Of a DNA stretch of 64,000 nucleotides, positions 27,501 through 47,125 are shown one piece after another (the first letter of the stretch is position 1; each line of letters opens with the position of its first letter). The translations under genes were made by a program, and so were the position numbers. The DNA comes from Gaetbulibacter sp. 4G1 (GTDB taxonomy: Bacteria; Bacteroidota; Bacteroidia; Flavobacteriales; Flavobacteriaceae), in the NCBI RefSeq assembly GCF_002741945.1, contig NZ_MDVN01000002.1, forward strand, positions 62,001 to 126,000, read 5' to 3'. Below the pieces are notes generated by a model. The model saw nothing but the letters and a program-made list of their open reading frames with translations. It did not search any database and had not been told where the DNA came from.

Positions 27501-30500
27501 GTTTCCGCCAATTACTAGTGGGTTATTGTTTGTAAATTGCGTATTTGCTATTCCGGTTGCTCCACCAATGTCACGATCATCTTCATAAATACTAAGACTA
27601 CCTGATGCATTATTGTGTGTAATTGTATAATGGTGAAATAGTCCATCAGTAACTATGGTTCCATTAGCCGTAATGTCTCCTAGGGTAGCATAAATGTCTC
27701 CATTTTCTAAACGAATATTTAGTCCGTTTTGCTGACTAATTACTGTAGCTGTTGATGCAGTTGTGGCATTGTTCATCCAGAACTCCACAGTCAAATCGCC
27801 TGATACTAATCTTGGGCTTTCTATGGTCGCGGTGTTATTAGCGCCTTCAAAACGCAGGGACACACTATGATCTATTGGTAACTGATTAGTTTCTCCTTTA
27901 ATCTCAATAGTACTTACCGCGCTGTTGTAGAAGATGTTTTCGTTAAAACTAACGCGTAAATCTTCTCCTGGGCCTAAAATACCATCGGTAGGTAATGGTG
28001 TGCCGAATTGTTGTGGCGACTGTAAATCTATACTTCCCGAAATCACGTCTGAAATAAATTCGGTATCATTGGTACAGGTGCTTCGAGCTCTTATTTCATA
28101 GTTTCCATCTTGTAATTGCAAGCTTACAATATCAAAAGCGAAAATAACTTCGGCATCTGTAATTAAAGAAATCTCAGACTCGCTATTGGCCACGGCCTCA
28201 TCATAAAACACCTGTGTATTATAATAGGTATGCAAGCGTGTCCAGTTAGGAGACGTTGCTAAACGGTATTCTAGATCTATCTTCTTAAAATTGTTAAAAG
28301 CCTGATTGTATTCCGATACATTGATAGCTAACGGATTGGTTGAACCATCATTATTAAAGGCTGCATCTACATTATACACCCAATTATCTAATGGGGCTTT
28401 TACAGCTACTTGTGAACAAGATGGCACAAAGTGGGCAGAAATCAATACATCATCAAATACGTTTACAGGATCACATTGTGATTGTAAAATAACTCGTATA
28501 TCTTCATAATCATTAACATCAGAAACTGATTTTCCTAATGTTAAGGTATATTCTACCGTTTGACCATATGGTACAAAAACCACAGTTCCATTCTGACTAA
28601 CATTTATTAATGCATTATCTGGATTTGTTAAGTTATCTACAATAAGTTCGAAATAATTAAAACTAGCTGCATCGCTTGTAGCATCTGCATTGTTTGAAAG
28701 CTGCAATTTAAATTCCGCATTGTTACTTTCTGGGATATTAAATATTTCAGAAACTTCAACAAGAATTTTAGGGTCTTCTGCTTTTTCAGTGGCGTTACTT
28801 AATGTTTCTCTATCTCCTTGCGCCAATTCTATAACAGGATTATTAGGATTATAAGTAGCGTGATTATAATAATGCGATAACTCTGGACCTTCATAAGGAC
28901 AGGATGTTCTACCGCCTACGGTTGTAAATATAGGACCACTACCATCAAACAAATTGATAATATCTACACTTAACACATTTGCTGGATCGTTGTCTTTTAA
29001 GGTATAACTAATAGTTGTCGTCTTTGTATCTTCTTCTGTTAAGGATGCACTAAATGCTTGACTTGCAAATCCTGTTGTTGTAGATTCTATACCTAATTTA
29101 TTGACGCTAAAACCAAGTTCTAGTTGTAAACTTTGTTCTATATTAATATCAAACTCTAAAGTTGATGTATTTACAACGACAGATTCTATACTTCTAGACA
29201 CTTCACCAACACCAGAATCAAAAGTGATATTATCTTGCGATTTTGATGTTATTAAAGCTTTTTGTTCATCCGCTAGTTTTAATTTTTCTTGTAATAAACT
29301 TTCATACGGTCCACCAACTTGCGCATTATTTATTTCATCTTGAAGATCGCTTGTAAAATCGCCAATAGCCTGCAATGCAGTTTGCCCAATAAAAGTAGGA
29401 TCATTTAATGCCGTATATTTACTACGCTCGTTATTTAATATGATTCTGCGCCATAAGTTAATTTGATTTTCATACCAAGATTGAGGTTTAGCATTTTCTA
29501 CTGTACCACCATTTGATAAAGTTTCTACAATAGTTTCGTATTCCGGAATTAAATCTGTAATAATGAATTTTTGAGAATACACAAAGAAGGTGTTTGTTGG
29601 CTTTTCACCAAGGTAGAAGGCTTTTTGTTTATTTAAATACACTTTATCACCAACTCCATTGGTTAATTCAAAATTATCACTAGGGTCACCTATCTGATCT
29701 AAAGTTGCCTGAAAATCATCAAAACTTCCTTTAGAATAATTTTTAGAATTTCCTATATATAAATCACCTTCTGCTCCTACAAATTCTGGATCATCACTGG
29801 TTGATATGGTTTGGTTGAATGTATAGGTTTTGGTAATACTATTGCCATCTTTAGAAGAGGCTTCTACTGAAATATTCCCTGTTAAGCTATTGGTAACTTC
29901 GGTATTAACAACAAGTCCAGCTCCTGGAGGTCCTGCTACAATGGATACTTCTCCTCCCAACATTAATTTCACACTTTGAGAAATGCCTCCTCCACTTGAA
30001 AAACTATTGTCTGTGGTAAAACTAATGCTTTCTCCAGCTTCTATAGATGCGAAACTATTTGACCCTGGCGGGTCTCTTAAAATAATATCTGGAATCTCTG
30101 GTGCTTCTGATAGTATGGATTGACTTCCATCTCTTGCACCTCCTAAAATAATCCCATCGCTAATATAATTTTCAGCAGAATATGATACCCCTTCAATAAC
30201 ATATTGAATATCAATATTACGTGTAAAAGGTGTGTTTGTATTAGGTACTCCACCAATAAATGAATAATTGGTAATACTATTATCATTAGCATCAGTTTCA
30301 ATAACTTCTGATTCTGGTATTGCTAAATTGTTTGTAATACTTAATTGCCCATCTACAATAGGAACTATATCTTCAACGCCATTTATATCCATATCAAAAT
30401 TTTCATAACGCTCAAACGTATTTAAAACTATTTGGTAAGTAGAAAACTGTTGATAAATAAGAACATCATCATTTGATCCATCTGGATGCTTAAACCCTTC

Positions 30501-33182: not shown

Positions 33183-34073
33183 TTATAGTTTAATGATATA
33201 GTTTACCCCATAATTTATTGGGCGAGACTCTGTACCTTCTGTAGAAACTGTTCCAGAAATAGTATGCGAATGATCTCCATTAGCACTTGTTGGAACTACA
33301 GATATTCCAGCTTCAGAACTAAGAATATTAAATGCCGGATTGGAGCCAGCAGCAAACCTTCTATTAAGCATAGAAGTGGTGTGAAAGTGTGCACCAGCTG
33401 TGTTCGTAGCTAAACTACCCGCCGCATGATTATGTGCCAGATTATCGTCTTGCTGTCTGGTATTTAATGCCGGACCGGAATTGCCCGTATAACCGTTTAC
33501 CCCATTGGAGCCGGCACCTCTTAAAAAGAAGCCTCTTAAATCGGGCGCGTTGTTGCTGCCCAATAGCGCTATTAAATTATCAGAACCATTAATTCCGGTT
33601 AAGGAACTGCCATCACATAGTACCCAACCTGTTGGGGCCGTTGCTCCCACAAAAGGCATAATAGACCCTGTTGGCACACCGTTATTGGCGGCCACGGCAT
33701 AGGGAACGTGTTTTAATTTTTCATCGGATATCGGTGTGTTGCCTTCACTAATTCTTAAATAGAGTTGTTGGTTTGCAAAAAATGCTCCGTTGGTGGCTGC
33801 TGGACTTAACACATGAGAAAATACCCCAAAGGCATCTGTAGCGATACTCACCGTTTCTAAATTACCAACTCGTACTTCGGCATTACCATTATTGGCATCT
33901 AAATAATACAGCTCGAAGGTTAAATTGATATTGGTATTTGCTCTTGCCGTGTTATTATTATCTCTGGCAATTCCTTGTACCGCAATATCGGCTATTTCTG
34001 CTGAGGTTTGCGCATAATTGTAGGTTGCTACAAAAAGCATTAATAGGGTTAAAAATGTAAATTTTGTTTTCAT
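33183..34073 (-). CDS. Secreted protein with phage tail-collar-type domain
   Basis: A 296-residue exported protein. I place the start at the ATG at 34071-34073 because it begins a proper signal peptide (MKTKFTFLTLLMLFVATYNYAQ); an in-frame ATG 54 bases upstream would spoil it. About 25-130 is a beta domain found in many secreted Bacteroidota proteins (ending KLKHVPYAVAANNG). From 132 on is a tail-collar domain with VPTGSIMPFVG, TAPTGWVLCDGSSL and LRGFFLRGAGS, the DNA-independent trimerising fold of phage tail fibres. With its signal peptide and no phage genes nearby, it is not prophage but a host surface protein using this fold. It leads the operon of the LamG giant, and the upstream region carries the TACGTA operator. 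Confidence 0.8.
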   Translation of the reverse strand: MKTKFTFLTLLMLFVATYNYAQTSAEIADIAVQGIARDNNNTARANTNINLTFELYYLDANNGNAEVRVGNLETVSIATDAFGVFSHVLSPAATNGAFFANQQLYLRISEGNTPISDEKLKHVPYAVAANNGVPTGSIMPFVGATAPTGWVLCDGSSLTGINGSDNLIALLGSNNAPDLRGFFLRGAGSNGVNGYTGNSGPALNTRQQDDNLAHNHAAGSLATNTAGAHFHTTSMLNRRFAAGSNPAFNILSSEAGISVVPTSANGDHSHTISGTVSTEGTESRPINYGVNYIIKL

Positions 34074-34134
34074 GGTTATTATTGTTAATTCGTTATACTC
34101 TTTTTTGAGACAAGGATATACATCCAATGCTAGT

Positions 34135-34165
34135 GCAAGGTATAACTAGGGGTAGTCTATAACAA
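34135..34165 (-). promoter_or_regulatory. Possible promoter of the tail-collar/LamG operon
   Basis: On the minus strand TTG (34163-34165), 20 bases, then TACCTTGC (34135-34142), an imperfect TAnnTTTG. It is accepted mainly because it lies at the same distance from the first TACGTA box and from the start codon as the better-formed peroxiredoxin promoter. An alternative -7 (TATCCTTG, 34111-34118) with a TTG at 34136-34138 is equally possible. Confidence 0.3.
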
Positions 34166-34201
34166 TACGTACCACTTGCAAATACTACGTAGGGCTACGT
34201 A
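34166..34201. promoter_or_regulatory. Triple TACGTA operator (tail-collar/LamG operon)
   Basis: TACGTA occurs at 34166-34171, 34186-34191 and 34196-34201. The last two form TACGTAGGGCTACGTA. Start-to-start spacing is 20 and 10 bases, one or two helical turns. The first box begins 93 bases upstream of the tail-collar start codon. The same arrangement recurs at 46396-46430. The likely ligand is the LuxR-type response regulator encoded next door, acting as an activator just upstream of -33; this is inference. Confidence 0.6.
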
Positions 34202-34230
34202 GCGTTTGATATGAAAGTTGCTTACCGAAT

Positions 34231-34869
34231 TTATATGGAAAGTATAAGCTCTTTATGCTCCTGAGCCCAAGAACTTAGGGCATCCATTTCGTTTGAAAGG
34301 TCTAATTTTTGGATGATATTGGAGCGGTGTTTTTCTACAGTTCTACTTGATATGCTTAATAATTCTCCAATTTCTTTAGAAGATTTCCCTTGTGCTACTA
34401 AACGAACAATGGTACGCTCTGAAGGGCTTAAGAATTTAATTTTCTCAATTTCTGGTGAAATCTGATTTTGAAGTATTTTATTGAATTCTGAGCTAAAGTA
34501 TGTGCCACCTTTATAAACTTCCTGAATGCATTTGTGGAGTTCGATTGATGGTTCATCTTTTAAAATATAACCTTGTATATTAAGTTTTTGTGCTTTTGAA
34601 ATAAAGCCTTTTTGTTTATGAGATGTCAGGATGATAAACTTTGTGGTTTGTTGCTTATCCAAACATTTTTGAATGACTTCAAAACCTGATAACAAAGGCA
34701 TTTCTATATCCAAAATGGCAATATCTGGTTGCAATGACATAATATCATCTAAAGCTTTTGCTCCATTTTCTACTGAAGAAATGACATTATAATTAAACGA
34801 TTTAAGTTCATCTACTAAACCTTTGAGTAACATCGGGTGGTCATCGGCAACTAAAACAGAAATTTCCAT
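34231..34869 (-). CDS. NarL/LuxR-type response regulator (partner of the propeller kinase)
   Basis: A 212-residue regulator. Residues 1-120 are a receiver (VLVADDHPMLLKG; phospho-acceptor Asp in AILDIEMPLLSGFE; Thr/Ser in FIILTSHKQKG; Lys in GYILKDE). About 145-205 is a GerE/LuxR helix-turn-helix (LSPSERTIVRLVAQGKSSKE, then ISSRTVEKHRSNIIQKLDL). It begins 2 bases after the stop of the propeller histidine kinase, so the two form a co-transcribed pair. Its HTH recognition helix (RTVEKHRSNII) is identical to that of the regulator at 46469-47125, and both genes are followed by a triple TACGTA operator. The likely target is therefore the operon starting at 34073. Confidence 0.93.
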   Translation of the reverse strand: MEISVLVADDHPMLLKGLVDELKSFNYNVISSVENGAKALDDIMSLQPDIAILDIEMPLLSGFEVIQKCLDKQQTTKFIILTSHKQKGFISKAQKLNIQGYILKDEPSIELHKCIQEVYKGGTYFSSEFNKILQNQISPEIEKIKFLSPSERTIVRLVAQGKSSKEIGELLSISSRTVEKHRSNIIQKLDLSNEMDALSSWAQEHKELILSI

Positions 34870-34871
34870 AA

Positions 34872-37739
34872 TTATACTATTGGTATTTGAGCTAGAACCA
34901 GCGTTCCTTCTTCTTTTTTACTTTTTATTGATAGTGTACCTTTTAACATGCGTATGCGTTCTGCTATAGTTTTTAAACCTAGGCTATGTTGTTTTACAGA
35001 CGCCACATTATCAAAACCAACACCGTTGTCTTTTATTAAAACTTCTATAGTACTACTATATTTTATAATGTTTACGGTTAATGTTTTAGCTTTGGCGTGT
35101 TTTAAAGCATTTGTTACCGTTTCTTGAATAAATCTATATAAATTAAGTGTTTCTGTTTCGTTAAACTCGTTATCAATATCATCAATCTCTACAGAAAAAA
35201 ACATATCGGTTTCTTCATCTAAATCATTTAATAACTGCTGAATGCTTTCAGATAATCCCAATTGTTTTAATGCTGCCGGATAAAGCCCTCTTGATATGCT
35301 ACGCACTTCTTCAAGCGCATTATTTGTCATGGCAGATAATTCTTGTTGTTCCAAATTCTGAGCTTTCTTTTTAATTAATGTCAGCTGCTGGCCTACACTA
35401 TCGTGTAAATCTTTAGATACCCTGGTCCGTTCTTCTTCTTGAGTTTTTATAAGGTCTTGCGAAAATTGTTGTAATCGTTTTTGTTCTATCTTATTCTTAC
35501 GATTAATACTATACAATACAATTCCTGATAATATGGCTATAGTTAAAACCCAAAATAAAGGTCTTCTCCAAAATGGTACGTTAATCACAAACGGATAGGT
35601 ATATATATTGTCTTGCCATATGCCGTTACCATTATCTGCAGTAAATTCAAAAGTATAATTTCCGGGAGGCAGATATGAAAAAACAACCTCATGGTTTTTG
35701 ACTGGTTGAGACCAGACATCTCCATCCCTTAAACCCTTTAGGCGATACTTATATTTTACGTTTTCAGGAAATGTATAGGTAATCGCTTCCATATCAAATG
35801 TCAGGTAATTTTCTTTATAGGACAAAGACACTTTCCCATCTTTTGTATAGAATGATTCATTTAGGGGTTCGGAAAATAATGATACGCCGGATAGATTTAA
35901 TTTAGGAGGCTTTTCATTTGACTTATATAAAGATTCATTAAAGATTAATAAGCCTTTTGGAGTTTCACCGTAAACAATATCATTGTTTTTTATACTCACA
36001 CCATTAATATGAAAACCATCTTCCATAATATCCTTATCAATAGGAAAGGTCTTCATACTAATACTGTCCTTCTCCAATAACAAATTCAGGTCTACTCTTC
36101 TTAAGGAAGAAATATCGCCTAACCATAAATCATTACCATTTACGGTCATGGAATTAAGACCATTCAAATCGTTGAATCTACTTTGGTGGAACGTTTTAAC
36201 CTGATAACTTGAGTCTGTATATCTGACGTAATAAATACCTTGCTCCGTATCCCCCACAAAAAAGGAATGGTCGTTCACCTGAGCCATAGCGTTATATAAT
36301 CTGCCATCCGGTTCAAACCCATTTATTGGCGAAAGTGGCCCGTCTTTAAACTCAAAAATACCAACCTTAAGACCTGCCAGATAATGATCAGCGATCTTTA
36401 TAAGATTAAAAGGTTCTGCGGCAGGAATAATCAAGGTTGTGTCCGGTTTTACGATATGAAACCAGTCATATCCGCAAAGTATATAACGGTCTTTATGCGC
36501 ATAAACGTTGTTAAAATAACCTTTACCTATAATATCTTTTTGTTTTAGGTTTTCGTATAAATAAGTCCGACTCGTTCTGGAAATCAAAAATTTGTCCTTA
36601 GAGATTTGATCTATGGCTCTAATATCTAAATCGTTTATGAGCGTATCTTTAAGTGTGTTATTTTTTAATCGATACAAACCCTTGCTGGTGGCCATTAGAA
36701 CACTGTCTTTTCCTTCCTGAATAGTTTTCGCAATGCCTTCTTCCGCTAATCCATTTCCAATAGGTAAAAACTTAAATGAATCATCCCTGTATTTAACCAA
36801 ACCATTCCATATATCGACACCCCAAATATTACCATCCGGGTCTTCCGTAACATCATGAACATAGGGTGTAGGAATCCCTTTTTTGGTATTAAGCATGTTA
36901 TAATGCCCGGTCGTTTTATTAAAAATCACAATACCATTTCCTTCCAACCCCAATAGCAGTTCATCGTTATTTCTTTGGCGGATACTTTGAATACGATTAC
37001 TATTGAATTCCTTCTGATTAAATTTGTATTTTACTATGGAACCATCCGGCAATAATTTTACCAATTCGCCATAGGTTCCTATCCAGATGTCACCAGAACC
37101 ATTAATATCTTTTGATATGCAATACGAAATATTATTAAGAGTGGGAGAGGTTATTAGTTTTTCCGATTTAAAAGGATTCAATGTTATCTTATGAACACCA
37201 TCATTTAATGTAGGCGCCATAATGGTATTATCATCTAACCAAATAGCGTCGTTAATAGCCAGTGGTAGCTCATGCTCATCAACAATCACTTTCGCTTGAG
37301 CACCATCGAATTCAACAATACCTTTAGCTGTAAAATAGATGATGTTTCCATTTTTCTTTTCCAAAAACGACCTAATATGTGCATATTTTTGAGGGAGCCT
37401 ATCTTTCAGATTGATTACGCTGTCATTTTCAATATAATTGGCACCTCCGGAAATGGTTGCCACCCAGATGCGGCCTTTAGAGTCCTCATATAACTTAGTA
37501 GCCAAATTGGAAGACAGGCCTTCTTTAATAGTGAAGTTTTTAAAGTTAGATCCGTTAAACTTTTGTACCCCTTGTGAAGTAGCTATCCATAAATAGCCAT
37601 TACGATCGGTCAAAATACTTTGAGAAGCATTACTCAAAAGTCCTTGTTTCGTGGTGTAGTGCTTAAAGGTGTGATCTTGTGCAAATAGAGAGAGTGAGAG
37701 AGCACATAAGAAAACACCTAAGACAACTTTTTTTAACAT
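34872..37739 (-). CDS. Sensor histidine kinase with two-component regulator propeller
   Basis: A 955-residue membrane kinase. Residues 1-20 are a signal peptide. About 25-620 are repeated 'two-component regulator propeller' blades (DRNGYLWIATSQGVQKFNG, EDSKGRIWVATISGG, EDPDGNIWGVDIWNG), forming a periplasmic sensor. About 630-715 is a Y_Y_Y beta domain ending in YLPPGNYTFEFTADNGNG. A transmembrane helix lies near 727-747. After a short coiled coil comes a HisKA_3 phosphoacceptor (KDLHDSVGQQLTLIKKK, His near 776) and an HATPase domain (NALKHA, then DNGVGF, SLGLKTIAERI). In Bacteroides such propeller sensors often detect polysaccharide fragments, though those are usually hybrid proteins with an AraC output; this one passes phosphate to a separate LuxR-type regulator. 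The ligand is unknown. Confidence 0.92.
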   Translation of the reverse strand: MLKKVVLGVFLCALSLSLFAQDHTFKHYTTKQGLLSNASQSILTDRNGYLWIATSQGVQKFNGSNFKNFTIKEGLSSNLATKLYEDSKGRIWVATISGGANYIENDSVINLKDRLPQKYAHIRSFLEKKNGNIIYFTAKGIVEFDGAQAKVIVDEHELPLAINDAIWLDDNTIMAPTLNDGVHKITLNPFKSEKLITSPTLNNISYCISKDINGSGDIWIGTYGELVKLLPDGSIVKYKFNQKEFNSNRIQSIRQRNNDELLLGLEGNGIVIFNKTTGHYNMLNTKKGIPTPYVHDVTEDPDGNIWGVDIWNGLVKYRDDSFKFLPIGNGLAEEGIAKTIQEGKDSVLMATSKGLYRLKNNTLKDTLINDLDIRAIDQISKDKFLISRTSRTYLYENLKQKDIIGKGYFNNVYAHKDRYILCGYDWFHIVKPDTTLIIPAAEPFNLIKIADHYLAGLKVGIFEFKDGPLSPINGFEPDGRLYNAMAQVNDHSFFVGDTEQGIYYVRYTDSSYQVKTFHQSRFNDLNGLNSMTVNGNDLWLGDISSLRRVDLNLLLEKDSISMKTFPIDKDIMEDGFHINGVSIKNNDIVYGETPKGLLIFNESLYKSNEKPPKLNLSGVSLFSEPLNESFYTKDGKVSLSYKENYLTFDMEAITYTFPENVKYKYRLKGLRDGDVWSQPVKNHEVVFSYLPPGNYTFEFTADNGNGIWQDNIYTYPFVINVPFWRRPLFWVLTIAILSGIVLYSINRKNKIEQKRLQQFSQDLIKTQEEERTRVSKDLHDSVGQQLTLIKKKAQNLEQQELSAMTNNALEEVRSISRGLYPAALKQLGLSESIQQLLNDLDEETDMFFSVEIDDIDNEFNETETLNLYRFIQETVTNALKHAKAKTLTVNIIKYSSTIEVLIKDNGVGFDNVASVKQHSLGLKTIAERIRMLKGTLSIKSKKEEGTLVLAQIPIV

Positions 37740-37866
37740 ACGTGTAAATATAATTAATTTTAGAATATGTTAAAATTGACTTACATATATAAAATTTAAG
37801 CAACCGTTAAAACATATAATTAAACTGTTGTGACTTAATACAAAAATAAGCAAGAACAAACGCTAC

Positions 37867-38544
37867 CTAATAATCTAGTCGCTTTAAGAATAGCTCTTTA
37901 TAGGTTTTACCAATTGGAATCGATTTATCATTGATAAAAACCTGACTACCGTAAACTTTTTCAATTTTATTAATATTGATAATGTATGATCGATGCACTT
38001 GTACAAAAGAAAAATTTGCTAATTTATCTTTCCAATTTCTCAAACTATCTAATATCAAGATTTCTCTATCCTTGGTAATAACATTTACATAATCTACTTC
38101 GGCTTTTAAGTATAAGATGTCATCAATTTCTACTTTATAGATTGTTTTATCAGCATATAAAAAGAGCTGTTCGATTTTTTCTTTCTGTTGTACTAAAAAC
38201 AGATTCCTAGCCCGTGTGACAGCTTTAAAGAATCGCTCATAAGAAAATGGTTTTACTAAATAATCTAAGACAGCTTCCTCAAAAGCTTCAATAGCATGAT
38301 TAGAATACGCAGTTGTTACGATTACTTTCGGTGGATAGGTAACCGTTTTTAGAAAAGACAAGCCGTTTAGTTCTGGCAGTTGAATGTCTAAAAATAAAAC
38401 GTCTGCTCGCTTTAACTTCTCCAGAGGGATGTCTAATCCGCTTTCGTACATTCCAATGCAATTTACAAAAGGTGTTTTGTCTATATACCCCTGCAAAACC
38501 TCTCGTGCTGATTGTTCATCCTCTAAAATCAAACAGTGTATCAT
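37867..38544 (-). CDS. LytTR-family response regulator (partner of the adjacent LytS-type kinase)
   Basis: A 225-residue regulator with a receiver (ILEDEQSAREV; phospho-acceptor Asp in VLFLDIQLPELNG; VTTAYSNHA; YLVKPF) and a LytTR domain at about 125-225 (FVQVHRSYIININKIEKVYG). Its ATG overlaps the stop of the kinase gene by 4 bases, showing translational coupling in the order receptor, lipoprotein, kinase, regulator. LytTR proteins usually bind direct repeats and activate promoters near their own operon; the TonB-dependent receptor at the start of the operon is a plausible target. Confidence 0.92.
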   Translation of the reverse strand: MIHCLILEDEQSAREVLQGYIDKTPFVNCIGMYESGLDIPLEKLKRADVLFLDIQLPELNGLSFLKTVTYPPKVIVTTAYSNHAIEAFEEAVLDYLVKPFSYERFFKAVTRARNLFLVQQKEKIEQLFLYADKTIYKVEIDDILYLKAEVDYVNVITKDREILILDSLRNWKDKLANFSFVQVHRSYIININKIEKVYGSQVFINDKSIPIGKTYKELFLKRLDY

Positions 38545-39572
38545 AATTCAATTTTCAATAGTACGTTAAATAGGTTATTTTCTTTTTTTATCTCAAGTTG
38601 ATGTTTCTCTGGGTATAACAATTGTAAACGATTTTGAGTGTTTTTTATTCCTACTCCGCTTTTTTTCCAGCCCAATTCTAGTGATTCTTCGGCATTTGCT
38701 AGAAATGGGTTTTGGCATTGAAATATCAATTCATTATTCTGCAATTGTATATTAATTTTAATCAAATGATTTTCTCCTTTTAAAATACTCGTATATTTAA
38801 ATGCATTTTCTACAAAACCAATAAATAACAATGGGGAAATGTGCTTTTCTTCGGAATCAATTTTTGATATGAAGTCAACTTTTACTTTACGTAACAAGCG
38901 CTCCTGTTGCAAATTAATATAATCATTTACATGCCGAATTTCTTGCTGAACGAGTACTTGTGCCTTTTGTCCTTCATGTAATAAATACCTGAAGCTATCG
39001 GACAATTTTAGAATCAACTCAGGTGTTTTCTCATCTTTCTTCAAAGCGTTCGCATAGATAGTATTAAGTGTATTAAACAAAAAATGCGGATCTACTTGAG
39101 CTTTTAGAGCTTTTAACTCTGCTTCTCTTTTCTCTTTTGATAATGAATCAATCACTAACTGTTTCTTATACAAACCCTTTACTGAGTATATGGCAAAGAA
39201 AACAATTCCGAAGCTGATATACGTCAGCATATTCGCTGCAAAATGTTTCCAGAAATGAGCATTCTCTTTATGAAAAACTCGATCAGAGAATTCATAGATA
39301 ACGGCATTTAACACAAAGGCAATAATAACAAAAGGAATGAATTTCAGTAAGTTCTTCTTTGGGAAAAACCATAGATATAAAAAATAAGAAATTGTCATTT
39401 TAAACAGCAATGAATTAAGCTCGTGTGCAAACGTCATCATATAACCACCTTCCCTTCCTAAGTACTTCATATAGGGATAAAACAACACAATACTCCATAT
39501 AAAAATATGAAGTATTGGTTCCATTTTTAAAAATTTATAATATCTGTTTTTCTTTTTTTCCAAGATTAGCAA
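38541..39572 (-). CDS. LytS-type sensor histidine kinase
   Basis: A 343-residue inner-membrane kinase. Residues 1-145 contain four hydrophobic helices (for example ILHIFIWSIVLFYPYM and FIPFVIIAFVLNAVIYEF) without a large outer domain, as in Bacteroidota LytS-like kinases. About 155-240 is the His_kinase domain with the phosphoacceptor in QVDPHFLFNTLNTIYA (His near 162), then an HATPase-like part (FVENAFKYTS, GVGIKNTQNRLQLLYPE). It lies between a lipoprotein gene (9-base gap) and its LytTR regulator (4-base overlap). The signal is probably linked to the membrane or to the co-encoded outer-membrane receptor; this is inferred from the operon only. Confidence 0.92.
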   Translation of the reverse strand: MLILEKKKNRYYKFLKMEPILHIFIWSIVLFYPYMKYLGREGGYMMTFAHELNSLLFKMTISYFLYLWFFPKKNLLKFIPFVIIAFVLNAVIYEFSDRVFHKENAHFWKHFAANMLTYISFGIVFFAIYSVKGLYKKQLVIDSLSKEKREAELKALKAQVDPHFLFNTLNTIYANALKKDEKTPELILKLSDSFRYLLHEGQKAQVLVQQEIRHVNDYINLQQERLLRKVKVDFISKIDSEEKHISPLLFIGFVENAFKYTSILKGENHLIKINIQLQNNELIFQCQNPFLANAEESLELGWKKSGVGIKNTQNRLQLLYPEKHQLEIKKENNLFNVLLKIEL

Positions 39573-39581
39573 GTTACAATA

Positions 39582-40274
39582 TTATTCATGTGAAATGATC
39601 AAATTTTTTAGAGCAGCTTTGGCAAAAATTACTTTTTCACCAGTAGTACCACTAATCCGAAATATCAAATGCCCTCCAAACAATGGATTGCAATCTTCCT
39701 GATCAAAAATTATTTCGTCATTGAGTTTAAACCATAAACGGTTGCCTTGTTTTCCTATTTCTACATCATACCATTCATGGATACCCATAATGTTTTCTGC
39801 TTTTGTAAGATGAAAACCTTTAGAGCGTGGCGATGTATTTTTAAAAAAGAATGGTTTGTAGTTATGAGAAACATTATTAAATGTTAAGTTATAATGTTCT
39901 AAATGAGTTCTCCAAGTCCAAAATCCAATGCCTTTAGTTTCTTTTGGTGGAAGTGTGATTCCTTGAGACTCACCAGCATCTGACGCAGAAAAAAGAGCAA
40001 TTAAAACAGTAGATTCTGACAAAGCTTTTACTTTATAATTTATAATAATGTCCCCTTTGTAACTTTTAGGGCTCACTAAAAAATAGCCGTCTGCTCCTTC
40101 AGTTTCCTCAATAATGAGCTCCTCACCTACTACTGTTGACTTTCCCTTGTCTAACGTTCTCCAAGTAGAAAGTTCTTGAACTGTAATTGTTTCTTTTTTT
40201 AATGTTGTTTCCGAGCAGTTTGCCAGCAATACAAGCGAACAAAAAAGCATAATTCTAGGTGTAATTGTTTTCAT
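39582..40274 (-). CDS. Lipoprotein with a concanavalin-like (DUF1961-type) fold
   Basis: A 230-residue lipoprotein, lipobox LLANCSE (Cys near residue 20). The rest is a beta-sandwich with motifs WRTLDKGKSTVVGEELIIEE, YFLVSPKSYKGDIIINYKVK, IGFWTWRTHLEHYNLTFNN and WYDVEIGKQGNRLWFKLNDE. Those features resemble DUF1961/DUF1080-type domains that bind or act on carbohydrate. Acidic residues are present, but no certain catalytic set was identified. It sits in the TonB-dependent receptor operon, 18 bases after the receptor gene, which suggests it helps handle the same ligand at the outer membrane. Confidence 0.65.
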   Translation of the reverse strand: MKTITPRIMLFCSLVLLANCSETTLKKETITVQELSTWRTLDKGKSTVVGEELIIEETEGADGYFLVSPKSYKGDIIINYKVKALSESTVLIALFSASDAGESQGITLPPKETKGIGFWTWRTHLEHYNLTFNNVSHNYKPFFFKNTSPRSKGFHLTKAENIMGIHEWYDVEIGKQGNRLWFKLNDEIIFDQEDCNPLFGGHLIFRISGTTGEKVIFAKAALKNLIISHE

Positions 40275-40292
40275 TATAATGTTTTAAATAGA

Positions 40293-42623
40293 TTAATCGG
40301 TAGTTCCTCCGTAGTTATAGTTTCGTGATTTTCTGCTTCTAATTTTTCCTTTGTTCTGAAATATTCTATAGTTTAGACTAAGCATCCATGCGAAGGTTTG
40401 TGATTGGAATTTCCAAGTTTCATTTTGAATTATCCCAGGTAATACAATTGTACGCCTGCGCAAATTAGCATCCAACACATCCACTATTCGGAAATTTGTT
40501 GTTAGTTTATTATCCAAAAACGAAGCCCTAATTGCAAAATCGATACGATTTCTAGGTTCGGTAATACTATAAACACTTTGGTTTCTTGGTGTATGACGAA
40601 AGGTAATGTCTGTACTGATATTTTTTGTAATTTTAAAAGTGCTCTTCAATATGATATTAGAACTGTATAAGTTATTCCAAGTTATATCAGGTTGATTTGC
40701 CTTGGTATAATAATAGTTTGCAGAAAGTTCTGAATTCCAATAGCTAGTAATTTTATATTGAATTGTATTTTCTATTCCAAAAGAATTTCTTTGTCCAATA
40801 TTATCAAAATTTATAAAATGAACTCCATTAGCATCAATAGTTTCTAACCATTGAATGACATCTGTACGATATCGGTAGAAAGTTGATGCTGAAATATTTA
40901 TTTTTTTTCCATTGTATTGATAATTCAATTCAAAATTATCGGCAAACTCTGGTTGTAAACTTGGATTGGAATTCCATTGAAAGTATTGATTCCCAACTTG
41001 AAACGGGTTGATATGACGAAAATTAGGGCGCGAAATTCGTCTACTATAACCTATACTAAAGGTATTCTTATCATTTGAGGTATAGGATACATGGACTGAT
41101 GGAAAGAGGTTTAAAAATCGTAAATCACTAGCCTGATTGTTTGCTGTATTGTTAGAGTCTGATGTAAAGTGCTCATAACGAATACCTGTTTGCCAATTAA
41201 AACTTCCTGTTTCAAACCTTGTTAGTCCATAGATTCCAATCAAGTTTTCTTTATAATCAAAAGCATCCTGCGTTGCATTACTTGCATTTGGTGTAAATTC
41301 TCTAAAGCTTCTTAATTTTCTATAATTCCAAGAAAAACCAGCCTCGAGCGTCATTTTATTTATAGGTAATGTATAATCAAAAGCTAAGGCATGTAAATCA
41401 TTTCGATTGTTTTGCAATTCATCAAATAAAAAAATGCCTTCTTCAATATCAGATGCAGGCAAAATATTTTCATTGTTCGTTAGATTGTAATCCAATTCTA
41501 AATAATGCCCTTTTGAAGTAAACTTCTTCCTGTAATTGGCATTATAAACTGTTGTTTTGTGCATATGTGATGAATTTCTTGTGTACACATAGTCTTGGCG
41601 GCCGGTTACATTGGAATAAAAAGTGTTGTTATGGAAACTATGTGAATCATCTGTATAATCGACCTGAAAGGATAACTCGTTGCTTTCATTTAAGAAAAAA
41701 TCTATTCCTAATGAAATGTTATTAATTTTCCCATTAAAATCATGCGGCGCAAAAAAATCACGGGTATTTCCGTTAGTATATTCTTGATAAATCCATTGCT
41801 TACTATCCATGCTTCTTCTACTATTTGATGCATTCAATCGAATATTTACAGAAGAAAGATTATAATTCGCATCAAAGCCATATTGATGACGTTTTGTACC
41901 TACAGAAGAATTTAATGTGAGATTCAATCCGTAATTTGTATTCTTTTTTAGAATTATATCAATGATTCCTGAGATTCCATCTGCTTGATTCTTGGCAGAT
42001 GGAGACGCAATAATCTCTATTTTATCTACTGATGAAGCAGCAATTTGCTGCAAAAGCTCTGTTGTATTTAATGGTGATGGCTTCCCATTCACTAATACTC
42101 GAACATTACCACCTCCACGCAGTGAAATTGTTCCCGTTCCTAAATCGGTTTGTATTTCAGGAATTTGATGAAAGGCTTCTAAAGCTGTGTTTCCTGATTG
42201 TTGTAAATCTGCTCCAAGATTTATTGTTTTATGATCAATTTTAAGCTGGGTGGTGTTTTTTTTCGCTTGTATAACGACTTCTTCCAATTCATTGTCCGGT
42301 TGTAAATTGATGACAATAGCATTGAAATCACTAATCTTGGAGATCGACAACATATAAGTTTTGTATCCAATAAAACTTACTTCAATATGTGTAGCATTTT
42401 TATTGTTCCTCAATTGAAATTCACCATCATCATTGGTCGAAACACCATCAATGAGGTTTGTGCTATTATAAATGACAACAGTGGCATAAGGAATATTTTC
42501 CTGAGTATTCGCATCCTTTATAATCCCTTTATAAACAAGATTTTTTTGAGAGAAAACAGGTGCAACACATATTAAAATAAGTAGTAATGAAAGTACTAAT
42601 CGCATTATTATTGAGTTTTTCAA
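40293..42623 (-). CDS. TonB-dependent receptor-like outer-membrane protein
   Basis: A 776-residue outer-membrane protein. It has a signal peptide (1-25), a carboxypeptidase-regulatory-like domain (about 26-110, with GIIKDANTQENIPYATVVI and EVSFIGYKTY), a plug domain (about 130-225: LRGGGNVRVLVNGKPSPLNT and SAKNQADGISGIIDIILKK) and a long beta-barrel (family 'outer membrane beta-barrel 3'). Barrel landmarks include the SIGYSRRISRPNFRHINPF strand and the LSLNYRIF-like closing strand. It lacks the long SusC extension. It probably imports or senses a ligand with TonB energy. It starts the operon with a lipoprotein and a LytS/LytTR pair, so it may be part of a self-regulated sensor-import unit. 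Confidence 0.88.
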   Translation of the reverse strand: MKNSIIMRLVLSLLLILICVAPVFSQKNLVYKGIIKDANTQENIPYATVVIYNSTNLIDGVSTNDDGEFQLRNNKNATHIEVSFIGYKTYMLSISKISDFNAIVINLQPDNELEEVVIQAKKNTTQLKIDHKTINLGADLQQSGNTALEAFHQIPEIQTDLGTGTISLRGGGNVRVLVNGKPSPLNTTELLQQIAASSVDKIEIIASPSAKNQADGISGIIDIILKKNTNYGLNLTLNSSVGTKRHQYGFDANYNLSSVNIRLNASNSRRSMDSKQWIYQEYTNGNTRDFFAPHDFNGKINNISLGIDFFLNESNELSFQVDYTDDSHSFHNNTFYSNVTGRQDYVYTRNSSHMHKTTVYNANYRKKFTSKGHYLELDYNLTNNENILPASDIEEGIFLFDELQNNRNDLHALAFDYTLPINKMTLEAGFSWNYRKLRSFREFTPNASNATQDAFDYKENLIGIYGLTRFETGSFNWQTGIRYEHFTSDSNNTANNQASDLRFLNLFPSVHVSYTSNDKNTFSIGYSRRISRPNFRHINPFQVGNQYFQWNSNPSLQPEFADNFELNYQYNGKKINISASTFYRYRTDVIQWLETIDANGVHFINFDNIGQRNSFGIENTIQYKITSYWNSELSANYYYTKANQPDITWNNLYSSNIILKSTFKITKNISTDITFRHTPRNQSVYSITEPRNRIDFAIRASFLDNKLTTNFRIVDVLDANLRRRTIVLPGIIQNETWKFQSQTFAWMLSLNYRIFQNKGKIRSRKSRNYNYGGTTD

Positions 42624-43082
42624 TACTCAAATGTGTTGCTCTTATTCTAGAATAGGAATTTTATTCTGTGAACTTACTCAGTAGCTCTGTTAACTAACAT
42701 CAACATTAATACTTCCTTGTAGCAAACGTCTTAATTTCCATTCCACACACATACCTCTCCTCCCTATTCATAAGGATTTCAATGAAAATGGTATAAAAAC
42801 GGAACAATTACTTTGACCTATTTGCCTATACAGAAAGTAATTTATATTGATTACTAATTAGTTAGGAATTACAGGTACAAATAGAATACAAAGCTACTTC
42901 ACCTTATAAATAATACATATAGATAATAATTATACATAACCATTATTGTCTTGAATACCTTTTCTTGACATAAAAAGAGTAACCAAACTATACTTTAAAG
43001 TTTACATCTGAATTTACTTAATATATCAAAAAAATACATTAAATTTCAGACAAAACATTTCTATTATCGCTAAACAAAATAA
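42624..43082. other. 459-base intergenic stretch between divergent units
   Basis: AT-rich DNA between the TonB-receptor start (minus) and a pirin scrap (plus). It should contain the receptor operon promoter; a CAAATGTG element at 42649-42656 is one base off the consensus. No RNA gene, tandem repeat or intact frame was seen. The missing N-terminal half of the pirin gene may have decayed here, but I could not recognise it. Confidence 0.4.
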
Positions 43083-43373
43083 GGATTTAGGTTCAGTAGC
43101 GAAACATGGATTTTTGACGTTAGATTGTCAAAAAACACAACAATAGAATTACCGAATATTGAAAATACAGATTCAATAGCCTTGTTCTATGTTTTTAATG
43201 GGAAAATTTCTATTAATGATAACCTTACGTTAAGAAAAAAAGATAGTGTAATTATAGAAGATGAAAAAGTTGATATAAATAGTGAAGAATTATCAGATTT
43301 AGTTTTGTTTATAACAGATAAAAGCAAACCCTATTTTGATGGAGGGATGTTTAGTAGAAATAGAAACAAGTAA
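43083..43373 (+). pseudogene. C-terminal remnant of a pirin-family (bicupin) protein
   Basis: An open plus-strand frame of 96 codons from a preceding stop: SSETWIFDVRLSKNTTIELP, then ALFYVFNGKISINDN, then LVLFITDK and a final DGGMFSRNRNK. The 'fDVrL--nt---LP' strand followed by 'Y--nG-i-i' is the C-terminal cupin of pirin-like proteins (quercetinase-like metal-binding proteins). There is no ATG at the start; the only in-frame initiator is a TTG at 43125. The N-terminal cupin with the metal ligands is gone. It is probably a dead gene, though the surviving part is free of stops. Confidence 0.55.
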
Positions 43374-43447
43374 ATAAGCAACACATATTTATAGTAGATA
43401 TGCATTCCAAGAAAATAGTTGGTTATGGGGTTATGTTTTCAGTTGTT

Positions 43448-45496
43448 TTATTCTATCATCAGTTTTTTTGATACTCGACCTTCATCGCCAGTAATAATTA
43501 AAAGATAATTTCCTGGGTTTAACGTAGAGATATCTATTGTAATTTCGTTATATAAGTTTTTAACATCATACGTTTGTATTAAGCGTCCAGTAAAATCATA
43601 AATATCTACTTTGTCTAAAGTTAAATTCTCCTTATTAAGAAGTATTATTTTATATTTTGTTGGGTTAGGGTAAAACGATAATCCGTTGTTAAGCACATTA
43701 TCTCCTATGCTTAACGTTGTATTAAACTCATAAGCACCTACATCTACTCTATTTAAACTCCCTATTTGTACGATGCGTTGTGCGCCTGTAATATCTATAG
43801 GAAGCCGTTCTGTAGTGTCGCCGTCATTGTCTATGTCAAAGGTGTCTAGCGGTAATTCTAAATTGGCTCCTCCATCTATAAGTGGGCTATTTTCTGCAGG
43901 AAACAAACCGTCATCTTGGGTGCCAAATACATCATCAGGACCATCTGGGTCGCTACTATTAATAAAAGGATCACTAGTTAAGGTAGTAAAGCCTGTGTCT
44001 TCAAAATTTTCAGCAAAATTGTTTCTTCCTGTTATAGTACTAGTACTTGAAACAAAAATTTCATCATTGCCATTCGGGTCTCCCCAAAAAACATTATTAT
44101 TAAATTCATGATCAAAGTTACCACCTACTACGAAATTGCTATTATCATTAATACCATTTGCAAAAAAAGTAGAGTTAGTTATTGTACTTGTAAAAGAGCC
44201 AGTACCTCCATTACCCGTACCACCAACAGCTATCGTACTAAAAGCGCCGCTTAAAAAAACAGTGCGATTTTCTATAAACACGTTATTTATAACATTATAT
44301 GGTTGATTAAAATGAAATATAGCTCCTGCTATTTCGTTAGCGATATTATTATAAAAAATATTATTGATATAGGTTGTAAGACGTGCACTTGATGGTGATG
44401 ATGCTAAATCTAAACCAGATACAGCTCCACCCCAAAACGCAGTATTTCCGATAAAGACATTCCCAATCATAGTTGGATTACCACCATGAATACGTATAGC
44501 TCCCCCGGTTGCATCCTCATCTATATTAGAAATAGGACTTGCGCTATTGTTTAAAAACATGCAGTTTTTTACGATGAAGGTCTCACTAGCGCTGGTGGAT
44601 ATTGCACCTCCAGATCTAGCATCATTATTTTCAAACAATACATTGGTAACAGTAGTTCCAGATGCTAATGTTAAAAATGAAGTACTCATTGCTCCACCAT
44701 CTGCTAAAGCCCTGTTACCTCTAAATATTGAATTCTCAACAACATTATCATCAGTGGCACCTAAAATACCCAAACCACCAGCTGTAGAATCTGCTTGGTT
44801 TTGAGTAAAAACGGCATTGCTCACTGTAAAACGAATATCTTCTAACCCTTCGTAAAGTAAGCCACCTCCTAGACTTAGACATGAATTACCAACAAAAATC
44901 ATATCGCTAACATTAGGTGAAGAACGTAGATGATACATACCGCCACCACTATCACGACGAAAACTTTGACCACCGTATGTAAGGTCTCCACTTCCTGATG
45001 CATTACCGCCTTGTACAGTAAAGCCATTTATGGTAGTTGCATCAGTAAGGTTAGCTGTAATAAGGACATGAAACGCATTTTCAGCATTACCGGTAATGTT
45101 TAGGTTTTCTCCAAGACCTGTAACCACATCATCAGTATTAAAATCACCACTTAAAATACTTGGATTACTTAAATCTTGCATATTGGTAGCTGGGTTAAAA
45201 CTCCCTAATAAAGTAATATTTCGATTAAAATGAAATGCTCTATCTCTTGGTTCAGTATTATTCCCGTCAGGGGATTCTGTAGGGAAATAAGTGCCATAAG
45301 CCACGCGTATTTCATCACCTACTACTGCAGCATCTAGTGCTGGTTGTAGGTTTCTTGTTGCTGTGGCCCATGAGGTACCATCACCAGAATCGTCTGGTTG
45401 GGAAGCATCTACAAAATAGGTGGTTTGGCTAAACGAGTCGTTTATAGTAACCATTATAATAACTACCGTAAATAGAATATGTAATTTTCTTTTCAT
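43448..45496 (-). CDS. T9SS-secreted parallel beta-helix protein (choice-of-anchor Q type)
   Basis: A 682-residue secreted protein. Residues 1-24 form a signal peptide (SFSQ). About 25-590 is a parallel beta-helix of short GG-rich turns; examples are DSGGGMYHLRSSPNVS, DGGAMSTSF, SGGAISTSA and TGGAIRIHGGNP. These are typical of polymorphic outer-membrane/adhesin-like passengers and of the choice-of-anchor Q family (YFVDASQPDDSGDGTSWATA start; PIDITGAQRIVQIGSLNRVDVGAYE near the end). The last ~75 residues are a Por-type (type A) sorting tail (LSFYPNPTKYKIILL ... LNPGNYLLII), so it is exported by T9SS and anchored to surface lipopolysaccharide. It may bind or act on polysaccharide. Single gene. 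Confidence 0.82.
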   Translation of the reverse strand: MKRKLHILFTVVIIMVTINDSFSQTTYFVDASQPDDSGDGTSWATATRNLQPALDAAVVGDEIRVAYGTYFPTESPDGNNTEPRDRAFHFNRNITLLGSFNPATNMQDLSNPSILSGDFNTDDVVTGLGENLNITGNAENAFHVLITANLTDATTINGFTVQGGNASGSGDLTYGGQSFRRDSGGGMYHLRSSPNVSDMIFVGNSCLSLGGGLLYEGLEDIRFTVSNAVFTQNQADSTAGGLGILGATDDNVVENSIFRGNRALADGGAMSTSFLTLASGTTVTNVLFENNDARSGGAISTSASETFIVKNCMFLNNSASPISNIDEDATGGAIRIHGGNPTMIGNVFIGNTAFWGGAVSGLDLASSPSSARLTTYINNIFYNNIANEIAGAIFHFNQPYNVINNVFIENRTVFLSGAFSTIAVGGTGNGGTGSFTSTITNSTFFANGINDNSNFVVGGNFDHEFNNNVFWGDPNGNDEIFVSSTSTITGRNNFAENFEDTGFTTLTSDPFINSSDPDGPDDVFGTQDDGLFPAENSPLIDGGANLELPLDTFDIDNDGDTTERLPIDITGAQRIVQIGSLNRVDVGAYEFNTTLSIGDNVLNNGLSFYPNPTKYKIILLNKENLTLDKVDIYDFTGRLIQTYDVKNLYNEITIDISTLNPGNYLLIITGDEGRVSKKLMIE

Positions 45497-45666
45497 AGTA
45501 TAATTTTTAAACGTGTGCTTTTATTTAAACATTAACCCATTGTCTATTTTATAGTTTAAAAAGGTAGTTACAGGTTTCTTCCCTTATAATTTGTAATAGC
45601 CTTTATTATTATAGCCTAAATAAGCAATGGGCAATAGAGAGATTTGAGAAAATTGATAATAGCAAT

Positions 45667-46305
45667 TTACTTATTAGGTTGTGGCGTCATTCTTAAATAC
45701 GGCTTTATCTCAGTATGCCCTTTAGGAAATAATTCGGGAATTTGCTCATTAGACACAGAAGGGACAATAACACAATCGTCTCCGTTATTCCAATTGGCAG
45801 GTGTAGCTACTTTTTGGTATGCTGTAAGTTGTAAAGAATCTATGACGCGTAACAATTCATCAAAATTACGCCCTGTGGACGCAGGATAGGTTAACGTGAG
45901 TTTTACTTTTTTATCATTCCCAATTACAAATACCGAACGCACAGTTAAATTGTTATCAGCATTTGGATGAATCATATCATATAAGGTCGCTACTTTTTTA
46001 TCTTCGTCAGCAATAATGGGAAAGTTTACTGAAGTATTTTGAGTTTCATTAATATCTTTAATCCAACCATGATGTGAATCAATGCCATCTACACTAAGTG
46101 CTACTACTTTTACATTACGCTGCGCAAAAGCATCTTTATATTTGGCAACTGTACCTAATTCTGTAGTACATACTGGTGTATAATCTGCTGGATGCGAAAA
46201 TAAAACGCCCCAACCTTCGCCAAGCCATTCGTGAAAATTAATTTCTCCTTCTGTTGAGTTTGCTGTAAAATTTGGTGCTTCATCACCTAATCGAATTGTT
46301 TTCAT
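45667..46305 (-). CDS. 1-Cys peroxiredoxin (Prx6 type)
   Basis: A 212-residue cytoplasmic peroxidase of the AhpC/TSA superfamily, reducing H2O2 and organic peroxides. The peroxidatic Cys is in the motif HPADYTPVCTTELG (near residue 46). The Prx6-type features follow: VVALSVDGIDSHHGWIKDI, SVFVIGNDKKVKLTLTYPAS and the C-terminal dimer domain PANWNNGDDCVIVPSVSNE. No second resolving Cys of the 2-Cys type is evident. It is a single gene 163 bases downstream of the TPR-kinase/LuxR-regulator pair. Its upstream region holds a good promoter and the triple TACGTA operator, so it is probably controlled by that regulator. Confidence 0.93.
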   Translation of the reverse strand: MKTIRLGDEAPNFTANSTEGEINFHEWLGEGWGVLFSHPADYTPVCTTELGTVAKYKDAFAQRNVKVVALSVDGIDSHHGWIKDINETQNTSVNFPIIADEDKKVATLYDMIHPNADNNLTVRSVFVIGNDKKVKLTLTYPASTGRNFDELLRVIDSLQLTAYQKVATPANWNNGDDCVIVPSVSNEQIPELFPKGHTEIKPYLRMTPQPNK

Positions 46306-46364
46306 ATATTCTTTATTTATAGTATTGAATAGACGTAGGTCTTATCCTCATTGTTTTGATTTAA

Positions 46365-46394
46365 CAAATGTAGGATACTGTACTATGCCAACAA
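46365..46394 (-). promoter_or_regulatory. Flavobacterial -33/-7 promoter of the peroxiredoxin gene
   Basis: Minus-strand TTG (46392-46394), 19-base spacer, TACATTTG (46365-46372): an exact TTG-N17-23-TAnnTTTG match, 60 bases before the start codon. The first TACGTA box of the operator begins 1 base upstream of the TTG. Confidence 0.5.
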
Positions 46395-46395
46395 A

Positions 46396-46430
46396 TACGT
46401 ATAAAGATGTAATATTACGTAGGGTACGTA
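46396..46430. promoter_or_regulatory. Triple TACGTA operator (peroxiredoxin gene)
   Basis: TACGTA occurs at 46396-46401, 46416-46421 and 46425-46430; the last two form TACGTAGGGTACGTA. Spacing is 20 and 9 bases. The first box begins 91 bases upstream of the peroxiredoxin start codon, against 93 in the tail-collar operon. The likely ligand is the LuxR-type regulator at 46469-47125, or its paralogue at 34231-34869. Confidence 0.6.
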
Positions 46431-46468: not shown

Positions 46469-47125
46469 TTATAAAGAATCTACAATAATTTTATGTTCAT
46501 TAGCCCATTTAGCAATGATATTGGCATCATGTTGCAGACCTAATTTAGAAATAATATTGCTACGATGCTTTTCTACAGTTCGAGTAGCCATTGATAATTG
46601 AAGACTTATTTCCTGAGAAGACTTTCCTTTTGAAACTAACCGAACAACAGCACGTTCTGTAGGCGTGAGTAATTTTATTTTTTTAAATTCTTTTTCAACA
46701 GATTTAATAATGTCTTCAGAAAATGAAGTGCTAATATAAATATGATCTTGCAATACCTGATTAATACAATTATTTATCTCAGGAACACCATCTTCTTTTA
46801 GTAAGTAACCATGGACCCCTATAGAAATAGCTTGTAGTAAGTACCCTTTACTTTTATGATAGGTCATGGTAATAAATCTTGTATTTGGACAGGATGCTCT
46901 TGCTTTTTTTATAACTTCAAAAGCATTTAATAAAGGCATTTCGATATCCAATAACGCAATTTTAGGTTGTTTTTCTACTATATAAGTAAGTGCTTTTGCG
47001 CCGTCTTCTACATTTGCTAAAATAGTATACCCTTCTTTTTCAAGTAGTTTTAACATGCCATTACGCATTATAGGATGGTCGTCTGCTAAAATTACTGTAA
47101 TGTTCTGTTTAAACATGGTTTTCAA
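46469..47125 (-). CDS. NarL/LuxR-type response regulator (partner of the TPR kinase)
   Basis: A 218-residue regulator: receiver (VILADDHPIMRNGML; Asp in IALLDIEMPLLNAFE; MTYHKSKGY; GYLLKED) plus a LuxR-type HTH near the C-terminus (LTPTERAVVRLVSKGKSSQE, MATRTVEKHRSNIISKLGL). Its start overlaps the kinase stop by 4 bases (ATGA), so the pair is translationally coupled. It is a paralogue of the 34231 regulator, with the same recognition helix, the same LDIEMPLL receiver motif and a similar length. The gene ends 163 bases before the peroxiredoxin start, with the TACGTA operator in between, which makes peroxide defence the probable output. Confidence 0.93.
   Translation of the reverse strand: MKTMFKQNITVILADDHPIMRNGMLKLLEKEGYTILANVEDGAKALTYIVEKQPKIALLDIEMPLLNAFEVIKKARASCPNTRFITMTYHKSKGYLLQAISIGVHGYLLKEDGVPEINNCINQVLQDHIYISTSFSEDIIKSVEKEFKKIKLLTPTERAVVRLVSKGKSSQEISLQLSMATRTVEKHRSNIISKLGLQHDANIIAKWANEHKIIVDSL

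Follow-up and report, generated by a model that had tools for sequence, protein, structure and literature searches.

Two TACGTA arrays and their neighbouring genes

The window analysed here, a 64,000-nucleotide stretch of the Gaetbulibacter sp. 4G1 genome (contig NZ_MDVN01000002.1, positions 62,001 to 126,000 of the forward strand), holds two arrays of the hexamer TACGTA, each lying between a gene for a LuxR/NarL-type regulator and the gene that follows it (Table 1). All genes concerned and both arrays are on the minus strand, and the order on the sense strand is the same at both loci: kinase, regulator, TACGTA-(G)CCC-TACGTA-N14-TACGTA (boxes 1 to 3), promoter, and target. The hexamers start at 34166, 34186 and 34196 in array 1 (spacing 20 and 10) and at 46396, 46416 and 46425 in array 2 (spacing 20 and 9), the inner gap being, from centre to centre, 10 bp in array 1 and 9 bp in array 2. 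Array 1 lies 29 bp from the stop of the first regulator, RR1 (34231), and array 2 lies 38 bp from the stop of the second, RR2 (46469), with array-to-start distances of 93 and 91 bases to the start codons at 34073 and 46305. These boxes, spacings and distances, and the location of the arrays between regulator stop and next gene, are as described in an earlier sequence-only reading of this DNA, and the helix RTVEKHRSNII that it had noticed is indeed common to RR1 and RR2.

The two regulators are 45% identical, and both carry the Response_reg and GerE domains (Pfam) of NarL/FixJ-type response regulators. Directly upstream of each is a histidine kinase with HisKA_3 and HATPase_c domains (HK1 and HK2, respectively), presumably its cognate kinase. 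Target 1 is separated by 9 bp from the gene for a 2874-aa protein, and both are probably on one transcript.

Table 1. Coordinates of the two window loci and of the putative small RNA copies elsewhere in the genome.
Feature	Position	Strand	Evidence
Operator 1 (predicted): dyad A TACGTAGCCCTACGTA 34186-34201, and right half of dyad B, TACGTA, 34166-34171	34166..34201	-	profile 60.6 bits (training site)
Operator 2 (predicted): dyad A with 3-bp spacer TACGTACCCTACGTA 46416-46430, and right half of dyad B 46396-46401	46396..46430	-	profile 43.6 bits (training site)
Predicted promoter 1: TTG right after box 3, -7 box TACCTTGC 34135-34142, 23 nt downstream	34130..34165	-	
Predicted promoter 2: TTTG right after box 3, -7 box TACATTTG 46365-46372, 23 nt downstream	46360..46395	-	
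RR1, NarL/FixJ-type response regulator (receiver and GerE)	34231..34869	-	Pfam, relatives
HK1, histidine kinase, two-component propeller sensor (Reg_prop, Y_Y_Y, HisKA_3, HATPase_c)	34872..37739	-	Pfam
Target 1, tail-collar domain protein, signal-peptide-like start (by eye)	33183..34073	-	Pfam
Gene after target 1, 2874 aa, Laminin_G_3 and type IX secretion C-terminal domain	24549..33173	-	
RR2, NarL/FixJ-type response regulator	46469..47125	-	Pfam
HK2, histidine kinase, TPR sensor	47122..49176	-	Pfam
Target 2, 1-Cys peroxiredoxin	45667..46305	-	Pfam
Putative small RNA family copies (L037)	C3:15528-15897	-	
Putative small RNA family copy (L017)	C21:33373-33400		

Arrays in the window and in the genome

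Single TACGTA hexamers are not enriched in the window (16 vs. 11.1 expected, with 6 out of 100 shuffles reaching 16), and counting them as a signal was dropped. Their clustering is enriched, with neither a close pair (N3-4) nor a triple arising in 300 dinucleotide shuffles of the window. Across the 3.89-Mb genome, the pair TACGTA-N13-15-TACGTA is found only at the two window arrays (one match per strand for the reversed-pattern control), and close pairs (N1-6) occur at six further places (control two per strand). Two of these, C3:344287 and C19:290664, fall inside genes; the other four are CTTC-spaced and come from two loci, one at C2:129225 and the other on contig C3, where three tandem copies lie beside a third paralogue of the regulators. 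The pair at C2:129225 has a terminator-like appearance by eye, and the idea that the C3 pairs are mere terminators was abandoned because they lie 35 nt before putative small-RNA starts (see below).

A genome scan with 3 mismatches and 4/14 spacing returned four matches, three of them the window sites or overlaps of these (reversed control seven). We also built an operator-promoter profile of 80 positions from 36 training sites, the two window sites among them, and against this genome the next best score after those of the window arrays (Table 1) was 19.1 bits. With only two full-length profile sites, the arrays therefore do not represent a large regulon here.

Conservation across the Flavobacteriaceae

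The perfect triple is present in 25 out of 397 family genomes, its own included, and the reversed pattern in one. In genomes G177, G227, G382 and G011 (loci L040, L050, L051 and L057, respectively), triples stand directly upstream of genes which, from their N-termini, we take to be nirB-like and nitrate reductase-like, with no LuxR neighbour.

Of 66 loci with an RR1 relative, 27 show the triple without mismatch and 53 an array with at most 3 mismatches, vs. 11 out of 2581 random stretches of those loci (71 loci had been found, of which L128 and L134-L137 were left out, and L074, with no candidate, was scored as a miss). Relatives of RR2 were found in 61 out of 395 genomes (E-value ≤ 1e-45). 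Regulator records that agreed in full over the last 150 residues or over the first 150 bases downstream were merged, which reduced 143 records to 122 distinct regulators; 81 of these, both window ones counted, have an array with at most 3 mismatches within 340 bp downstream. In related Flavobacteriaceae, where the sequence-only reading had proposed to search, the array is recovered beside regulator relatives from other genera, though the gene behind it varies.

Co-inheritance of arrays and regulators

Array spacing follows the regulators: on a tree of 118 regulators (four short or distant ones being left out of the 122; a quick tree under a simple model, with SH-aLRT support only), the inner gap (3 or 4) changes three times and the outer gap (14 or 15) four times, as compared to means of 6.8 (minimum 5) and 26.7 (minimum 20), respectively, in 200 shuffles. 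For presence vs. absence of the array, the number of changes is 19 (shuffle mean 32.4, minimum 27).

Half-sites also agree with recognition helices. At the loci around the putative small RNA described below, TACGTA is paired with a helix of the type RTVxKH or KTVHKH (16 loci) and TACTCA with NTVDTHRR (nine loci), which amounts to all 25 readable loci out of 32 examined, these stemming mainly from two clades of orthologues and so not being 25 independent events. This supports the suggestion that a shared helix accompanies a shared half-site.

Dyad architecture and promoter geometry

The three boxes proposed from sequence alone are real, but a reading as three equal units suits the array less well than one as a pair of inverted-repeat dyads, of which one is degenerate. 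Together, boxes 1 and 2 make up dyad A, an inverted repeat of 16 bp (TAC-N10-GTA), which in operator 1 has the NarL-type 7-2-7 form, i.e., two heptamers with TAC outermost around a 2-bp centre (TACGTAG-CC-CTACGTA). Operator 2 does not have this 16-bp form, being 15 bp long with a 3-bp spacer, a spacer also seen in all four array-bearing rows of the six-row clade of RR2 and in L106, L241 and L232. In 14 out of 88 sites (4-bp spacer, at most 5 mismatches; some rows are close relatives and were not thinned), neither half of dyad A is a perfect TACGTA, and the changes share a mirrored position in 12 of them and a tandem position in one (e.g., TACGTG..CACGTA or TAAGTA..TACTTA). The second dyad (dyad B), with box 3 as its right half, is visible in many relatives with a 15-bp outer gap, and in the window type its right half alone is left. 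The dyad centres are 20-21 bp apart, that is, two helix turns.

Downstream of the array, 76 of the 81 sites have a -7 box (matching TAnnTTTG or TAnnTTGC at 5 or more of the 6 positions) 23-25 nt past box 3, the offset expected for a flavobacterial promoter, as compared to 0-7 sites for 12 other offset windows. The best offset among 22-25 is 23 in 77 sites (ties assigned to 23), and TTT or TTG directly follows box 3 in 65. Taking the -7 consensus at -12 to -5, where the available passages of PMC9723704 place the flavobacterial -7 box, box 3 spans about -41 to -36, which is activator geometry, where an activator can touch the polymerase. By type, 39 of the 81 boxes are TAnnTTGY, 15 TAnnTTTG, 16 TAnnTTT with another end, and 11 other. 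The 39 fit the SM5 promoters of Flavobacterium psychrophilum (TAnnTTGY), to which TACCTTGC of promoter 1 is alike, and TACATTTG of promoter 2 is of the sigma A type. In the passages of PMC9723704 available to us, the SM5 promoters, among them the one driving the gliding operon remFG-sprCDBF, are ascribed to an alternative sigma factor; the main text of that paper mentions neither “LuxR” nor “response regulator”. The predicted transcription starts are at ~34130 (57-nt leader) and ~46360 (55-nt leader), and promoter 2 is conserved in genome G059. A scan for sigma-70-type promoters gave no excess (57 vs. 61.8 in shuffles).

Arrays as probable operators of the adjacent regulators

Conservation, spacing on the phylogeny, fixed promoter distance and helix/half-site agreement strongly support, at the level of sequence, the earlier proposal that the arrays are binding sites, with these LuxR-type regulators as the predicted readers. 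We consider it very probable that each array would be the operator of the NarL-type regulator encoded just upstream and would serve the promoter of the next gene by local activation.

Several observations weigh against this. Many equivalent arrays at unrelated genes had been named by the sequence-only reading as evidence against itself; 22 of the 29 triple loci fetched stand beside a family regulator (21 behind an RR1/RR2-homologous regulator and one in front), but seven, at six places, have no such LuxR neighbour. No good array is found within 340 bp of 41 out of the 122 regulators, and identical helices occur among these array-less regulators too. A looser scan of the stretches fetched, run with no chance control, gave candidate sites for 20 of the 41, farther away or more diverged and in some cases belonging to a neighbouring regulator; for the remaining 21, a convergent neighbour is common. 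The 33 profile matches of at least 27 bits in 299 genomes speak for the operator reading, as all are found no farther than 11.5 kb from a regulator of the family and 30 of them no farther than 610 bp, but this count is partly circular, as the profile was trained on 36 sites beside such regulators; two matches of 25.5 and 24.6 bits have no family regulator nearby (55 matches were listed and distance was measured for 36, the other 19 being 18 below 24 bits and one 24.8-bit overlap of a measured site). Finally, both the -7 offset and the division into two helix classes had been spotted by eye before any count was made.

Targets and the question of a shared regulon

The genes behind the array encode type IX-secreted HYR/PKD proteins, Collar proteins, lipoproteins, peroxiredoxin or receivers. 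Pfam matches among 69 downstream proteins (kept for the 81 sites after excluding those <100 aa or on the other strand; a few first downstream open reading frames, or ORFs, may be wrong targets) comprise 20 type IX secretion tails, 16 HYR, 8 PKD_4, 7 Collar, 6 Response_reg, 5 YadA_head, 5 Thiol_cytolysin and 2 AhpC-TSA. The Thiol_cytolysin targets are found in relatives, with the lipoprotein-like targets of L073, L077, L084 and L138 as candidates. In one clade (L203, L229, L233 and relatives such as L114-L126), the target is itself receiver-like or LuxR-like. Three genomes, G337, G087 and G078, have an additional profile match ~540-820 bp beyond the regulator, which suggests a cascade.

Sensors vary as well. 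Over its C-terminal 218 residues, HK1 shares 86-88% identity with the C-terminal parts of the kinases beside two near-identical RR1 relatives (L069, 99.5%, and L180, 97%), where regulator, operator type and Collar-type target are the same as at the RR1 locus; these kinases are 688 and 673 aa long and have no listed match to the propeller part of HK1. With the kinase core kept and the N-terminal part different, sensor and target can therefore change around a constant core.

The sequence-only reading had gone on to propose that surface display and peroxide defence form one regulon, with both regulators binding both arrays. Half-sites and helix are identical, the two arrays lie 12 kb apart in one genome, and they are the only full-length sites found there. 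Nevertheless, the two modules occur apart (7 candidates were scored per genome): G248 has the RR1 module, and its sole match to RR2 at E-value ≤ 1e-45 is RR1 itself, while G059 has RR2, array 2 and the peroxiredoxin, with RR2 as its sole match. Three other genomes of the same genus have no RR2 match at this threshold. In addition, the inner gap differs between the arrays and tracks regulator lineage, the sensors of HK1 and HK2 differ in type, and a peroxiredoxin is the target in only 2 out of 69 cases, the window and one other locus. The genome has a second peroxiredoxin copy, 82% identical, at C23:96900; the 3.6 kb fetched around that copy contain no TACGTA. Because the modules occur separately and the sites adjoin their own regulators, a shared conserved regulon is not supported, and we regard a single surface-peroxide regulon as unlikely, although RR1 and RR2 may possibly cross-bind in this genome.

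Hairpin potential of dyad A and possible other readers of the array

Dyad A might instead act mainly as the intrinsic terminator hairpin of the kinase-regulator transcript. In operator 1 its fold energy is -11.4 kcal/mol (z -4.3) and a scan reports it as terminator-like on the opposite strand, mirrored changes would preserve a stem too, and the dyad of the third paralogue (RR3), 3 bases past the stop, is flanked by A and T tracts; the two operator 1 results add to the points against the operator reading. Yet operator 2 folds to only -3.8 kcal/mol and the median over 81 dyads is -4.5 kcal/mol, just nine of these combining a fold of -6 kcal/mol or better with at least 5 T in the next 8 bases, as an intrinsic terminator would, and 21 have a stem mismatch. 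A terminator scan of the coding strand listed neither window dyad. What is conserved is the sequence, beyond mere pairing, and a terminator leaves box 3 and the -7 distance unexplained. A primarily terminating function thus appears quite improbable, and a double role as operator and terminator is possible at some sites, operator 1 among them.

That a different DNA-binding protein, rather than the neighbouring regulator, reads the arrays is the least credible alternative and hardly to be expected, since spacing tracks the regulator phylogeny, the array stays with its regulator while targets change and half-sites change together with the helix, against which stand the seven triple loci lacking a LuxR neighbour, i.e., the nitrite/nitrate-type genes of the four genomes named above, a lipoprotein-like gene in G164, and a secreted-type gene in G195, 11 kb from a regulator.

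A putative small RNA family beside sister regulators

The rule that links helix and half-site led to a highly conserved putative small RNA in 72 out of 299 genomes. Behind the third paralogue (C3:15902-16522, 41%) come three tandem units of 144-145 bp. Each has a single TACGTA dyad in the same register as in the operators, its end 35 nt ahead of the 28-nt sequence GCTATTAATTAGTTCTTAGGGAGAATTA, which in turn precedes a terminator-like hairpin. The count of 72 genomes is for the 28-mer with at most 3 mismatches, the reversed control having none among the matches listed. A TACGTA dyad (at most 2 mismatches) ends 34-35 nt upstream of the 28-mer in 26 of the 36 sites examined; nine of the other 10 have TACTCA..GAGTA by pattern, at 35 nt in the five where the scan was anchored on the dyad. 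The half-site standing before the putative small RNA corresponds to the helix of the LuxR regulator next to it.

In each of the 38 distinct copies, the conserved 28-nt part is followed by a stretch that folds into a hairpin, and both sides change in 9 out of 21 consensus pairs (26 aligned copies). The 28-mer and hairpin are presumably transcribed as an RNA. Rfam returned only a tRNA for the C3 locus at the curated cut-off (four weak matches, with E-values of 0.67-0.8, were ignored), and no description of a conserved flavobacterial small RNA was found among the papers listed in the literature searches or in the available passages of PMC9723704 (supplements being outside the search).

Short ORFs predicted to be single hydrophobic helices follow the third-type regulator and any putative small RNA in L234, L236, L238 and L240 and at C3 ~15400 (by eye). 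At L085, L088, L097, L184 and L199, a short stretch with CTATTAAT behind the array promoter leads into a terminator-like hairpin ahead of the next gene (by eye), which may represent a small RNA or attenuator output.

Comparison with known systems

The window regulator has the same architecture as Escherichia coli NarL (match to 1a04_A at 1.3e-23, residues 4-204), with DesR (4ldz, 4.3e-29) being closer. Like the engineered NarL site TACCCCTAAAGGGGTA in the available passages of PMC4549865, the operator is a 16-bp inverted repeat that begins with TAC and ends with GTA, and the NarL 7-2-7 sites given there, at -40 to -49 (napF) and -38 to -47 (yeaR), are near the position of the promoter-proximal dyad here. 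Unlike NarL sites, the inner half-site bases are GTA (CCC there), and two dyads are found 20-21 bp apart, the second often half-degenerate; moreover, the operator lies next to the gene of its regulator, the neighbouring gene serves as target, and the promoter is flavobacterial. There is also a likeness to PorXY-SigP of Bacteroidetes, a two-component control touching type IX secretion; as far as the partial sources available to us describe it, that system governs the secretion machine, whereas single secreted or surface products are targeted here. PorX is, we assume, not a LuxR/NarL-type regulator.

A literature search (with subscription papers and supplements outside it) found, among the papers listed, no description of this operator/regulator group. 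In the parts of the literature available, TACGTA combined with response regulator and Flavobacter gave no match, and papers combining TACGTA with LuxR concern other subjects.

Proposed mechanism and implications

From the conservation, spacing, co-inheritance and helix/half-site agreement observed above, we infer the following course of phosphorylation, binding and activation for the arrays as operators of their adjacent regulators. The neighbouring kinase would phosphorylate the regulator, dimers of which would bind the two NarL 7-2-7 type dyads (TAC-N10-GTA, with a length of 15 bp in operator 2) at a distance of two turns of the helix. With the promoter-proximal half-site (box 3) abutting the predicted -33 region, the bound protein would recruit RNA polymerase to the -7 box 23 bp away, and the neighbouring gene would be switched on, activation being the presumed direction. 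Between species, kinase core, regulator and operator-promoter appear to stay together as sensor domain and target change, and such a constant core points to a switch that acts locally, in many cases on genes for surface or secreted proteins. The arrangement recurs in many marine bacteria, and each switch seems to act mainly on the gene next to it.

It is tempting to view these loci, with moderate confidence, as a clade of exchangeable two-component cassettes of the Flavobacteriaceae, in which a fixed core, including a double-dyad operator with its own promoter, is combined with varied sensors and with varied surface or secreted targets to give a plug-in switch for single displayed proteins. 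Sister regulators obeying the same operator rules would drive tandem copies of a new and near-invariant small-RNA family, in this genome under two regulators with different half-sites (TACGTA and TACTCA). For flavobacterial NarL-type regulators, this would offer a rule linking recognition helix to half-site. Because the site adjoins its regulator, targets may be read from genome sequence alone, which would provide a testable list of operators, promoters and targets for a large two-component group that often controls secreted and surface proteins in the Flavobacteriaceae.

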